A stretch of 64,000 nt of DNA from Fibrobacter intestinalis (lineage in GTDB: Bacteria > Fibrobacterota > Fibrobacteria > Fibrobacterales > Fibrobacteraceae), in assembly GCF_900167415.1 (NCBI RefSeq), contig NZ_FUWU01000008.1, positions 1-64,000 of the forward strand. The letters are read 5' to 3'. The translations under genes were made by a program, and so were the position numbers. The notes beneath the pieces were generated by a model that was not told the DNA's origin, did not search any database, and saw nothing but the letters and a program-made list of their open reading frames with translations. Every line of letters begins with the position of its first letter. The first letter of the stretch is position 1. Of this stretch, positions 1 through 4,704 are shown piece by piece.

Positions 1-128
1 GGGGACGAGAAGAAGGTGATATAATCGCCTGCCGAAGAATTGCTAAACGTCTCAAGGATGGCGGGGCTTCGTTGGATCTCATCGCGAATGTTTCCGGCCT
101 TTCCGAAGAAGAAATCCAAAGCCTGTAA
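1..128 (+). CDS. C-terminal end of an Rpn-family (PD-(D/E)XK) nuclease, partial
   Basis: Only the last 41 codons are in the window (frame starts at base 3; stop TAA 126-128). The peptide begins GREEGD and ends GLSEEEIQSL. This is the usual tail of Rpn recombination-promoting nuclease/putative transposase proteins: a charged GREEG coiled-coil stretch followed by a short helix-turn-helix-like end (LIANVSGLSEEEI). The catalytic domain lies upstream of the window and cannot be judged. A strong hairpin terminator follows at 154-178. The next gene encodes a protein with the same tail, so the pair looks related by duplication. Family assignment rests on the tail alone. Confidence 0.6.
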   Translation, partial: GREEGDIIACRRIAKRLKDGGASLDLIANVSGLSEEEIQSL

Positions 129-153
129 AAAGCTGTCTTGACTTTACAAATTC

Positions 154-178
154 AGCCCCGCCTCGTGCGGGGCTTTTG
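154..178 (+). terminator. Rho-independent terminator after the Rpn-family gene
   Basis: Perfect 8-bp stem AGCCCCGC (154-161) / GCGGGGCT (167-174), loop CTCGT, then TTTTG. It lies 26 bases after the stop codon. Confidence 0.85.
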
Positions 179-231
179 AAAGTTCTTTTTTGAACCGAAA
201 GACTTTGTGAAGTTTTTCAGTTAGCCTTTTC

Positions 232-239
232 TATATTTG
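232..239 (+). promoter_or_regulatory. TATATTTG promoter box for the Rpn-tail gene
   Basis: TATATTTG at 232-239 matches the Bacteroidota -7 consensus TAnnTTTG. A TTTG lies 24 bases further upstream. With the start codon at 279 and an AGAGG ribosome site at 266-270, this box would give a leader of about 35 nt. It lies after the terminator of the preceding gene, so the small gene probably has its own promoter. Confidence 0.5.
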
Positions 240-278
240 AAGAAGCTGCTCCCGAAAGAAGAGAAAGAGGAATTCAAA

Positions 279-563
279 ATGGACTTCATCAAGACATCCA
301 AAGCCTACGGCTACGAGACCATCGCCGACGCCGAAGAGAAGGCCCTCGCCGCAAAATACGAGGAAGGGCGCGACGAAGGCATCGGAATCGGATTTGAAAA
401 GGGTCGTGACGAAGGTATCGGGATTGGCATGGAAAGGGGACGGGAAGAAGGCGACTTGAATGCCCGACGCGAAATGGCGAAAGGTTTCCGCGATGCAGGT
501 GTTCCTGTAAATATCATCGCCCGGCAGACCGGCCTTTCCGAAGAAGAAATCCGGAATTTGTAA
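279..563 (+). CDS. Free-standing Rpn C-terminal-tail protein (94 aa)
   Basis: The protein consists of a short N-terminal helix (MDFIKTSKAYGYETIADAEE), two copies of a 13-residue RDEGIGIG-type unit, a GREEGD segment and the closing GLSEEEIRNL. It matches the tail of the preceding gene closely (GREEGD...GLSEEEIxxL). No nuclease domain is present. The start is ATG 279, chosen because AGAGG lies at 266-270 with 8-nt spacing; a TTG at 237 would be in frame but overlaps the promoter box. In enterobacterial Rpn systems a small C-terminal protein (RpnS), translated from an internal start, inhibits the full nuclease. A separate gene carrying only that tail could play the same role, but it could equally be a decayed copy. 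Function is unproven. Confidence 0.6.
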   Translation: MDFIKTSKAYGYETIADAEEKALAAKYEEGRDEGIGIGFEKGRDEGIGIGMERGREEGDLNARREMAKGFRDAGVPVNIIARQTGLSEEEIRNL

Positions 564-614
564 TTCACATTTTCAAATCCAAGCCTCGCCTCGAGCGTTT
601 TTTTTGTAAATACG

Positions 615-647
615 AAAAAGCCCGCCTTAAAAAAGGCGGACTCTTTT
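615..647. terminator. Bidirectional hairpin terminator
   Basis: Stem CCGCCTT (622-628) / AAGGCGG (633-639) with an A-rich loop, an A-tract upstream and CTCTTTT downstream. It serves the Rpn-tail gene on the plus strand. Confidence 0.75.
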
Positions 648-658
648 AGAAATCAGGA

Positions 659-724
659 GAACTTCGGAAGGAAACATCTACTTGTTCCGCCGGCAAAGCC
701 TTTGCGAACCTTTCGCCGAAGTTC
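659..724. other. Foldable intergenic segment (three-way-junction-like)
   Basis: A 9-bp perfect inverted repeat, GAACTTCGG (659-667) / CCGAAGTTC (716-724), encloses two smaller hairpins: GGAAaCA/TGTTCC (670-688) and GCAAA/TTTGC (693-705). It lies between the terminator at 615-647 and cvfB at 867, in about 200 bases without a gene. No known RNA family is recognised; it could be a small RNA or a chance fold. Confidence 0.3.
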
Positions 725-866
725 TTGACCGATTACAATACCAATTTACTTAAACTTCTTTGTTCTTTCAAGGAAAAAAAGCGTGTTCCATAGACCACGA
801 TAGCATATTCCATGTTGGAAGAAATTTTGTTTGCCGTCCTTTTTCTATTTTTGGCTTGAGGTTTAT

Positions 867-1760
867 ATGCACATTGGACATTTTGAATACGCCCGGGTCG
901 AAGACGTGAAGCCGCAAGGATTTTATTTAGAAGTAGAAAGCGGAGGACGAGTTCTTTTGCCCGGTTCCAAAGCCCCCGAAGGATTGCAGGAAGGCGACGA
1001 ATTAGAAGTGTTCATTTATGTCGATAACGAAGGCCGTCCAATAGCAACCATACAAAAGCCCTATGCGACCGTCGGCGAGTTTGCCGTTCTGGAAGTCAAG
1101 GACGTCAATGAAGTCGGCGCTTTTTTGGACTGGGGCTTGGACAAGGATCTTTTTTTGCCTTACAAGCAGCAACTCGGAAAACTTCTGCCCGGAGATCGCT
1201 GCGTGGTCTATATTTTAGAAGACGAACGCACGGCTCGCATTGTCGCCACGGAAAAAATCAAAGCGTTTATCGACAGGGATACGCGGGATTTGCACATTTC
1301 CCAAAAAGTCGATCTGGCGGTCTATGATGTCGCTGAAGATTACGTCGATTTTCTGGTAAACTATCGTTATACGGGTCGATTGCATCTGAATTCTTTCATT
1401 CAGGACACTTTTGAAATCGGAGATTGCGGAGTGGGCTACATTCAAAATATCCGCGAAGACGGCGGTCTTTCCATCAGCCTGAAACCTGTGGGCTACCACG
1501 CGACGATGGATGCCGCAGACGACATCATTCAAAAGTTGGAAGAGGCTGGCGGTTCACTTCCCTATTCCGACAACAGCTCGCCCGAAGAAATCCAGCAGGA
1601 GTTCGGCGTTTCCAAAAAGGCGTTTAAAAAAATCATCGGCGGACTCTTCCGCCAAGGGCGCATTTTTATCGGGAACGACGGCATCCGTCTTGCACCTAAA
1701 AAAGAAAATCGGCGATTTTCCCATCAAAAGCCGCGTAAAAATTTTCACAAAAACTCTTAA
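867..1760 (+). CDS. cvfB: S1-domain RNA-binding protein, CvfB family
   Basis: A 297-aa protein of the CvfB/YitL type. Successive S1-like OB folds run from residue 1 to about 215, beginning with the segment around YARVEDVKPQGFYLEVE and including GAFLDWGLDKDLFLP, where the acidic-glycine turn of S1 domains is clear. A winged-helix end follows (about 225-285, SPEEIQQEFGVSKKAFKK...GRIFI). The last 20 residues are strongly basic. Family members bind RNA and influence virulence-factor and ribosome-related expression in firmicutes; the role here is unknown. ATG 867 is preferred over an in-frame ATG at 831 because GAGG (858-861) is correctly spaced and the family N-terminus begins here. The GH5 gene follows after 12 bases, so they are probably cotranscribed. 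Confidence 0.85.
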   Translation: MHIGHFEYARVEDVKPQGFYLEVESGGRVLLPGSKAPEGLQEGDELEVFIYVDNEGRPIATIQKPYATVGEFAVLEVKDVNEVGAFLDWGLDKDLFLPYKQQLGKLLPGDRCVVYILEDERTARIVATEKIKAFIDRDTRDLHISQKVDLAVYDVAEDYVDFLVNYRYTGRLHLNSFIQDTFEIGDCGVGYIQNIREDGGLSISLKPVGYHATMDAADDIIQKLEEAGGSLPYSDNSSPEEIQQEFGVSKKAFKKIIGGLFRQGRIFIGNDGIRLAPKKENRRFSHQKPRKNFHKNS

Positions 1761-2899: not shown

Positions 2900-3664
2900 T
2901 CACATCTTCGTCTCCGGCTTTGTAATGTCGTGCCTCTTTTTGCACTCTGAATAGACAGTATCATCTTGAATTTTATCAGTAGATATTTGCGGCGCAACTT
3001 TTGCTATAACTTCAGGCAATTTCATGCAGACTTTATAAAAGGTGTCCGATTGTCCCGTAACAATGCAGTAAAATTGATCTATGCTTACTCGGCGAATTCT
3101 TTTATGGTGGACTTTTTGCTTGTCAACGGATGTTTCCCAGATTATGTTTTGAGAATCGTTTGCAATAGCTTCGACAAGATAGCAGGCGCAATCATCGTCA
3201 TTGCATAATTGTTGTTGCATTTTTTTGTGCGTTCTTTCGGCACTGGAACTATTCATTGTATTGTGCTTGTTTTTCATTTCCACATAAATTGTATGCACGA
3301 GTTCATCGCTTTCTTTGTTTGGAGCGAAATAAAGACCCGCCGGATTTTTAAATATCACGTCCCAACCGCCATTTTTCCCATTTGGCGGCACGGTGCATTT
3401 TTCCATATACTTGAAAATGTGCTGATGAAAATAGCCAATGTAATTGTTGTTTGTCTTGTCCCTTTGTCGAGTTATTTCATTGTTGATTAATTCTTGCCAT
3501 GGAATTCCGTATAAAGCCTTGTCGAATGCAAATTTTACAGGATCGATGATGTTTTTGTTAAAATCTTTCAATGACATCGATTTAAGGGATTCCCTGTAAT
3601 TTTCGATGGTTCTGCGTACATGGTTTTCAAAATCATTTTCTGAAATAAAATCCAAATCCCACAT
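2900..3664 (-). CDS. Type II restriction endonuclease, Eco47II-like
   Basis: A 254-aa protein resembling the Eco47II family (PF09553), whose studied members cut GGNCC. The N-terminus WDLDFISENDFENHV, the RQRDKTNNNYIGYFHQ stretch (67-81) and the core around D102 (GGWDVIF) and E129-x-K131 (YVEMKNKHNTMNSSS) fit a PD-(D/E)XK active site. ATG 3664 is chosen because GAGG (3672-3675) precedes it at 7-nt spacing; a TTG at 3670 is also in frame. It lies directly downstream of the methyltransferase pieces on the same strand, giving an M-then-R operon. Recognition of GGNCC or a related site is inferred from family only. Confidence 0.75.
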   Translation of the reverse strand: MWDLDFISENDFENHVRRTIENYRESLKSMSLKDFNKNIIDPVKFAFDKALYGIPWQELINNEITRQRDKTNNNYIGYFHQHIFKYMEKCTVPPNGKNGGWDVIFKNPAGLYFAPNKESDELVHTIYVEMKNKHNTMNSSSAERTHKKMQQQLCNDDDCACYLVEAIANDSQNIIWETSVDKQKVHHKRIRRVSIDQFYCIVTGQSDTFYKVCMKLPEVIAKVAPQISTDKIQDDTVYSECKKRHDITKPETKM

Positions 3665-3666
3665 GG

Positions 3667-3945
3667 TCAAACCTCTTTCAGAACTTTTGCGATTTGAATA
3701 CCGATGTCCTTTGCTAAATTGACCGGAACGGCGTTGCCGACTTGCTTGTATTGCTCCATCAATTTACCCGCAAATTTCCAATTGTCAGGGAAAGACTGGA
3801 AACGGGCATTTTCACGAACACTAAATGGGCGAACTTCCAGAGGGTGGCACCTGTCCGTCTGCTTCATTCCGGGATTTGTGAGAACTGCCAACGAAGGCTC
3901 GTTCAAACTTATTCTGCGTAAAATTCCGGTCCTTCCGCCTTCCAT
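3667..3945 (-). CDS. C5-cytosine methyltransferase, C-terminal part (motifs IX-X)
   Basis: A 92-aa ORF carrying the C-terminal motifs of a C5 DNA methyltransferase: the motif IX region (RPFSVRENARFQSFPDNW, residues 39-56) and motif X (QVGNAVPVNLAKDIG, 68-82). It is in the same frame as the upstream ORF 3949-4704 and separated from it only by TAG (3949-3951) and one codon. The ATG at 3945 is therefore the first possible restart site. Either it is reinitiated after the upstream stop and the halves assemble, as in the two-subunit M.AquI, or it is the dead 3' end of a gene with a nonsense mutation. Its TGA (3667-3669) lies just before the endonuclease start. Confidence 0.65.
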   Translation of the reverse strand: MEGGRTGILRRISLNEPSLAVLTNPGMKQTDRCHPLEVRPFSVRENARFQSFPDNWKFAGKLMEQYKQVGNAVPVNLAKDIGIQIAKVLKEV

Positions 3946-3948
3946 TTC

Positions 3949-4704
3949 CTAGCAGGTTTTCATATACTGTTTTGCAATTTCAGGATCAATGTCCCGCCAA
4001 TATCCGCCCGGTGGAACTAGTTCAAAGACCTTCTCCTTGGCCTCTGAGTATCTCGCGCAATGGTCTTTGTCCGGATTGAGATCGAGTTTGACATCTTTTA
4101 AGACAGGCTTGTATTTATGAGGTTTCGGAAACTCGAATTTCACCTTTGCAGCCAAATCTTTACGAATGCCGACTGTAATCAAGCGTTCCCTTTTTTGGGG
4201 ATTGTTGTAATCCCAAGCATTTAATACTTGGTGAAAAGTCACGTATCCTGCATCTTCAAAAATGTTCAGAATGGTATGGTAGGTTTTTCCCTTGTCGTGA
4301 GATAAGATTCCCTTTACATTTTCAAAAAGGAACATCTTGGGCTGCAGTTTATGCAAAAACGTCGCATAGTGATAAAACATCGTTCCGCGGACATCTTCAA
4401 GCCCGAGCCTTGTCCCTGCGTAGCTAAAACTTTGGCATGGAGCTCCGCCAGACAACAAATCAAGTTCATTTCGCTTGATCTTGAATTCTTTTGTCAAATC
4501 CCGTTCTGCGACTTTGGCAACATCTTCGCACAGAACGTTCCAGTCGGGACGATTGCTTTTTAGAGTCTCGGCGGCAGCCTTGTTAAATTCTACTAGTCCA
4601 ATATGATCAAAGCCCGCTTTTTCAAGGCCTATCACCAAACCGCCGGTTCCTGCAAACAGTTCAATAGACTTGAATCGTTTTGCCTTGCTTTTTTGCGTCG
4701 CCAT
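3949..4704 (-). CDS. C5-cytosine DNA methyltransferase, N-terminal part (motifs I-VIII)
   Basis: A 251-aa ORF with motif I (ELFAGTGGL, 15-23), motif IV with the catalytic Cys90 (GGAPCQSFSYAG), motif VI (FENVKG, 128-133) and motif VIII (QKRERLITVGIR, 170-181), then the beginning of the target-recognition region. It ends at TAG 3949-3951, directly before the highly conserved C-terminal part. With the downstream 92-aa ORF it makes a normal-length (about 345 aa) type II m5C methyltransferase. It should protect the site cut by the neighbouring Eco47II-like nuclease. GGAG precedes ATG 4704 at suitable spacing. If the stop is real and not bypassed, this half alone lacks motifs IX-X and would be inactive. 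Confidence 0.85.
   Translation of the reverse strand: MATQKSKAKRFKSIELFAGTGGLVIGLEKAGFDHIGLVEFNKAAAETLKSNRPDWNVLCEDVAKVAERDLTKEFKIKRNELDLLSGGAPCQSFSYAGTRLGLEDVRGTMFYHYATFLHKLQPKMFLFENVKGILSHDKGKTYHTILNIFEDAGYVTFHQVLNAWDYNNPQKRERLITVGIRKDLAAKVKFEFPKPHKYKPVLKDVKLDLNPDKDHCARYSEAKEKVFELVPPGGYWRDIDPEIAKQYMKTC

Follow-up and report, generated by a model that had tools for sequence, protein, structure and literature searches.

The first bases of the stretch analysed here (the window: 64,000 nt, bases 1-64000 of contig C34 in G000, a genome of 3.29 Mb in 116 contigs) place a short open reading frame (ORF) of 94 aa behind the tail of an rpn gene, and raise the question of whether the inhibitor of an Rpn nuclease can be kept as a gene of its own and, if so, which nuclease it would restrain. 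In the RpnL/RpnS gene-within-gene toxin-antitoxin system (PMC10327210) the inhibitor lies inside the toxin gene, whereas the putative inhibitor of the window lies outside; common to both are the tail fold, the four-residue repeats, the internal ribosome site and, probably, an internal promoter. The initial annotation proposed that the inhibitor had become a separate gene, which holds in so far as we recover a detached RpnS-type gene, but is not without precedent, as a separate rpnS downstream of rpn has been described in E. coli for rpnE/ypaA and for rpnC (PMC10327210). A non-exhaustive literature search returned nothing on the Rpn family in Fibrobacter.

The tail that closes at position 128 is indeed of Rpn type (frame 3-125, stop 126-128; TIGR01784, E=6.2e-4), and its nuclease part is out of view because contig C34 starts at window base 1, inside this upstream gene. 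Nuclease-domain matches in G000 comprise five complete genes and five 5' fragments reaching contig ends; on the opposite side stand 3' fragments with some nuclease domain (C28 and C37), two contig-cut tails (the end of C32 and window 1-125) and, as the fifth partner in this count, the gene preceding the C114 free-standing copy, which falls off the assembly. This five-to-five balance suggests that G000 carries about ten full-length genes, one of which would end at window 1-125. The assertion that the first tail is closed by a terminator of its own is matched by a strong hairpin (140-192; -21.6 kcal/mol, z -4.1), which is nevertheless missing from the list of the terminator scan, probably because just four T follow it.

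The 94-aa frame (ATG at 279, coding 279-560, stop codon 561-563) had been described as consisting solely of an Rpn tail, and the profile and structure searches agree: TIGR01784 aligned at profile positions 197-272 of 273, that is, the tail only (E=2.4e-7, with a score below the curated cut-off, 52.1 bits), and the best PDB match by sequence was E. coli RpnA-S (7TH0, E=7.8e-4). A profile search found no N-terminal Rpn nuclease domain in the frame, and none is attached to it because the stop-to-stop frame spans just 112 codons; it is homologous to Rpn nucleases in their C-terminal (RpnS) portion only. In the predicted model of the protein, residues 57-93 (the head) have a pLDDT of 81-87 and the remainder is poor. 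Foldseek ranked 7TH0 first for the modelled head (TM 0.77 by target, E only 0.1), and the two superpose at 0.8 Å over 38 columns with 45% identity; as modelled, the protein possesses in these residues the compact three-helix head of RpnA-S. The head is preceded by seven repeats, with one to eight (counted by hand) among the g1 relatives. A chance ORF was also considered and ruled out by the TIGR01784 and 7TH0 matches, together with 20 same-genome matches at E<=1e-3 (itself included). Judged from its sequence, 279-563 is a real detached rpnS-type gene with a ribosome site, a box and an intact tail (Table 1). Searches of 50,697 phage records and 72,556 plasmid records at E<=1e-3 found no copies of the kind that a counter-defence reading would require.

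Table 1. Features of the rpn block at the start of the window, and sites of a palindrome-rich element at other loci
Feature	Position	Strand	Remarks
3' end of upstream rpn reading frame, head type RRIAKRLKDGGASLDLIANVSGLSEEEIQSL	1..128	+	nuclease part beyond contig start
G+C-rich hairpin GCCCCGC..GCGGGGC then TTTT, terminator-like	140..192	+	between the two genes
TATATTTG box, probable promoter element from interior of full-length rpn genes	232..239	+	TATATTT[GA] invariance
AGAGG ribosome-binding site, 8 nt before ATG	266..270	+	GAG codon invariance
Free-standing rpnS-like gene, 94 aa	279..563	+	linker 279-368; seven four-residue repeats 369-452; C-terminal head 453-560
Right edge of rpn block; synteny with related genomes resumes	603..727	+	hairpin CCGCC..GGCGG 622-639 and conserved intergenic stretch
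Palindrome-rich element sites	L105:2100-2190; L106:2130-2220; L108 (minus strand); L116; L131; L132

The AGAGG ribosome site reported for this frame was confirmed, and so was the presence of a TATATTTG box; the latter, however, is not specific to the frame. The nucleotide match between the window ORF and full-length genes starts at ~223, just 5' of the box, so that what had been read as the ORF's promoter element belongs to the coding part of the parent gene (F-[LIV]-Y-L-K). Across 25 distinct contexts taken from full-length genes (8 in the window's genus and 17 in Fibrobacter, identical ones having been dropped beforehand; C37 and C28 are cut by contig ends and the L167 frame is shortened), TATATTT[GA] is invariant despite rare codons, the glutamate at the ribosome site is always encoded by GAG, and the internal ATG is always present (each 25/25). 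The first box codon changes amino acid yet always keeps TA (CTA for 5/5 Leu, ATA for 12/12 Ile, GTA for 8/8 Val), and is followed by TAT (25/25) and then by TTG (19) or TTA (6). In the window ORFs these codons account for 4.8% (CTA), 12.1% (ATA), 14.5% (GTA), 56.9% (TAT), 31.4% (TTG and TTA together) and 13.8% (GAG) of their own amino acids, frequencies whose products overstate the case for conservation because the copies are related. The conservation of the box and of GAG suggests an internal promoter and an internal start within rpn genes, and this comparative evidence argues for selection of the internal box and ribosome site at the nucleotide level; for E. coli rpn, both an internal promoter and an internal start have been demonstrated (PMC10327210).

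Outside rpn, TATATTT[GA] was found upstream of ORFs 9 times in sense versus once in antisense orientation (168 segments, p=0.02), a modest strand bias that was tested after the motif had been seen. Within the window, TAnnTTTG was not enriched upstream of genes (3/37 ORFs), and a scan for sigma-70-type promoters returned none on the + strand ahead of the 94-aa ORF; the ORF sets used for codon usage and promoter counts followed a simple longest-ORF rule. The box is missing from the free-standing copies of G005, G030, two in G040, and L098 and L104 (the latter two from another subfamily), and hence is not universal; some of the box-less copies sit right behind another reading frame.

In G000 the window tail segment recurs at the C-terminal end of full-length Rpn proteins, of which the single one examined has a PF04754 domain (E=7.5e-16), and, detached, on several contigs. 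Free tails are intact on C114 and on C22 (behind a complete rpn gene), and C45 carries one with an intact frame, preceded by a gene from a different Rpn subfamily (PF12784); C22 and C45 are the loci in G000 where a complete rpn and a free tail stand together. In G005, a complete genome, a free tail precedes a full rpn gene, and the similarity of this tail begins at the ribosome site. As for the suggested check of other genomes, detached tails occur across Fibrobacteraceae in at least three Rpn subfamilies. A linker search over 80 Fibrobacter genomes gave 33 matches, 19 of them long frames and 14 short, spread over 22 genomes. Short frames alone were found in 8 of the 22, and since G036 has a nuclease-only ORF adjoining its tail, seven are left (7/22 denotes tails without a full frame of the same subfamily, as a linker query would miss distant nuclease-only ORFs). 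The free-tail loci of G023, G065 and G069 have their left flank in common with the full-rpn locus of G092, the nuclease part being lost and the tail intact, which on sequence grounds indicates that some Fibrobacter genomes retain tails after nuclease loss. Close full-length counterparts elsewhere exist for the free heads of G040 (second copy, 40/45), G030 (34/42) and G090 (31/39), and are lacking for those of G036 (best 18/38), G065 (29/45) and G069 (29/45). A contig search with the Fibrobacter-type tail as query returned 17 loci, all from Fibrobacter, and one with the window-type tail returned no relative. In several Fibrobacter genomes we also observed, between the TATATTTG box and the tail, a short palindrome-rich element (GACGCC..GGCGTC CGCGGCGGCGGCTCGGTAATA AAAATATGC..GCATATTT); in G040 and G036 it interrupts an rpn gene, leaving one ORF with the nuclease alone and another with the tail, and it is absent from the window.

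As for the partner of the window copy, the statement that the same tail is repeated was accurate in that both are Rpn tails, but these are only 54% identical over 41 residues and of different head type, so that the window gene did not arise by recent copying of its upstream neighbour. Six nuclease-bearing tails in G000 share one head type (ALKNNGASLDLIANVSG), and the C31 tail and the tail at the end of C32 each have one of their own. The free copies of the window and of C22 have in common a head (27/31) that is not of the ALKNNGASLDLIANVSG type, and the C114 free copy has the head of the window 1-125 tail (29/31). Among the nuclease-borne tails of G000 in the comparison, the best match to the window head reaches 18/31, and the nearest head on an Rpn nuclease is that of the full-length gene in G005 (25/31). 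Repeat number (hand count) is unequal in 4/4 complete Fibrobacteraceae cis pairs (C22, C45, G005 and G020): 8 versus 2 in C22 and 4 versus 1 in G005, with one more in the free copy of C45 and G020. In E. coli, the free copy of rpnE/ypaA differs from the in-gene tail in both repeat number and head at 11/11 readable of 12 two-gene loci (K-12 plus 11, picked among 40 listed of 5,371 matching records; L204 was unreadable, and a further locus with a single gene, L211, served for contrast). These loci hold just six distinct length pairs, and because in-gene and free lengths do not overlap, shuffling of partners is unable to test the pairing.

The likeness to E. coli thus extends to a small separate Rpn-tail gene directly downstream of rpn and to in-gene and free tails that differ in head and repeat number; unlike the window copy, rpnE/ypaA (RpnE, RpnES') belongs to another Rpn subfamily and phylum, and the nuclease part of the window's neighbour is unassembled in comparison with rpnE. 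Moreover, each E. coli downstream copy groups with the gene that precedes it (PMC10327210), whereas for the window copy the closest match is the free copy of C22.

These observations bear on one alternative, namely that the free tail is an extra, independently expressed copy that restrains its own upstream nuclease. Its location directly downstream would fit such a role, as would the fact that E. coli RpnES' is made (PMC10327210) and that the two heads are the same in the G005 pair (31/31) and nearly so in the G020 pair. The C45 pair stands at 20/31 and the heads of the C22 pair are visibly different (below the 17/31 reporting limit); the divergence of the window pair, the C22 pair (at most 18/31 to any nuclease-borne tail) and the unequal repeat numbers in both phyla all argue against it, as a single added repeat in E. 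coli RpnC abolished inhibition (PMC10327210). From the repeat mismatches and this one-repeat effect we infer that most free tails do not restrain the adjacent nuclease, and we consider this alternative improbable. Harder to dismiss, though still unlikely in our view, is that the gene is the decaying debris of a tandem rpn duplication followed by deletion of the nuclease, intact only through its youth. In agreement with decay, the C41 copy is truncated, the C32 copy has lost its ATG, the downstream copy of G092 carries an in-frame stop, and E. coli ypaA is labelled a pseudogene in RefSeq. Furthermore, a search out to 1.5 kb from the orthologous flanking gene found no tail in any of the five other genomes of the window's genus (in four of which similarity to the window resumes only at ~603-665), and the rpn block is thus, among those compared, particular to G000 at that site.

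The pattern of substitutions between free copies, however, argues against decay: the window and C22 copies differ at 13/40 synonymous and 9/143 non-synonymous sites (Fisher p=5e-5), and the Fibrobacter free-free pairs have the same sign (G069/G040c, p=1e-6; G023/G040b, p=4e-10). These codon comparisons show purifying selection on the free-standing copies, although some of the synonymous changes may have arisen before detachment or through gene conversion with full-length genes (against the full gene of C32, the linker of the window copy has just 1 synonymous and 2 non-synonymous changes). The ribosome site and ATG are also retained across differing left junctions, including that of G005, which starts exactly at the ribosome site. 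Of the two properties on which the initial annotation had staked its proposal, purifying selection is therefore seen in free-free comparisons, but the locus is not conserved (0/5 other genomes of the genus). Least probable to us is that the free tail serves as a store that recombines into rpn through the shared linker and switches its tail type. The near-invariant linker with heads that vary between loci is what such a store would produce, and the single-gene E. coli haplotype L211 has the ypaA head on rpnE; no switching is seen among close relatives at the window locus, however, and a store of this kind is compatible with antitoxin function.

We therefore favour, with a probability of roughly 0.6, the reading that 279-563 is a detached rpnS gene whose product is an expressed antitoxin, probably non-cognate to its neighbour. 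A segment inside an rpn gene (internal promoter box, ribosome site, ATG and tail) would have been duplicated downstream and would probably be transcribed and translated independently. By analogy with E. coli (PMC10327210), the 94-aa protein could block an Rpn nuclease by using its repeat helix and head to pair with the tail of that enzyme. Because the window head differs from the upstream tail, it may act as an orphan antitoxin on other tail-matched Rpn proteins (resident elsewhere or incoming), and its antitoxin function would most likely be directed towards a nuclease other than its neighbour. Against the detached-antitoxin reading, G000 has four other downstream copies of the subfamily, of which one is broken (C41) and one decayed (C32), and all five related genomes lack the block next to the orthologous flanking gene. 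Orphan antitoxins and orphan immunity genes are inhibitors kept without, or mismatched to, a resident toxin, and their likeness to the window copy is one of analogy.

On this detached-antitoxin reading, the RpnL/RpnS system, with free-standing antitoxin genes, is carried into Fibrobacterota, and the rule of mismatch is seen in two phyla. If the detached antitoxins are indeed non-cognate, repeat number and head type could be read as a code for the Rpn that a cell withstands. More speculatively, and in our opinion doubtfully, detached rpnS genes may be out of register with the adjacent nuclease across phyla, since a copy in register and with its own transcription would neutralise the toxin permanently, leaving just the non-cognate copies to persist; they would then constitute an orphan repertoire, with occasional tail switching via the linker, directed at Rpn nucleases of other loci or strains.

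The annotation of such genes calls for caution, as free-standing tail ORFs get called pseudogenes or incomplete genes: ypaA of E. coli K-12 (L200:7817-8002) is a RefSeq pseudogene though its protein is reported to be made (PMC10327210), and the majority of the further two-gene records read from E. coli label its counterpart incomplete. To the right of the rpn block, the intergenic stretch 650-727 is similar in four of the five related genomes and precedes a gene (~867-1760) which we take to encode an S1-type RNA-binding protein; Rfam gave nothing above threshold for 650-727 and a search for known RNAs in window 1-1000 just two sub-threshold matches, and the stretch is possibly a small RNA or a leader. 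Further downstream, three minus-strand ORFs (256, 92 and 251 aa; window 2900-4704) resemble, on visual inspection, genes for a restriction endonuclease and for a DNA cytosine methyltransferase, broken by a frameshift or stop. Finally, contigs C27 and C108 of G000 (bases 1-1972, L023 and L024) carry an Rpn tail at identical coordinates (326-472), and their shared start possibly represents a duplicated or collapsed region of the assembly.
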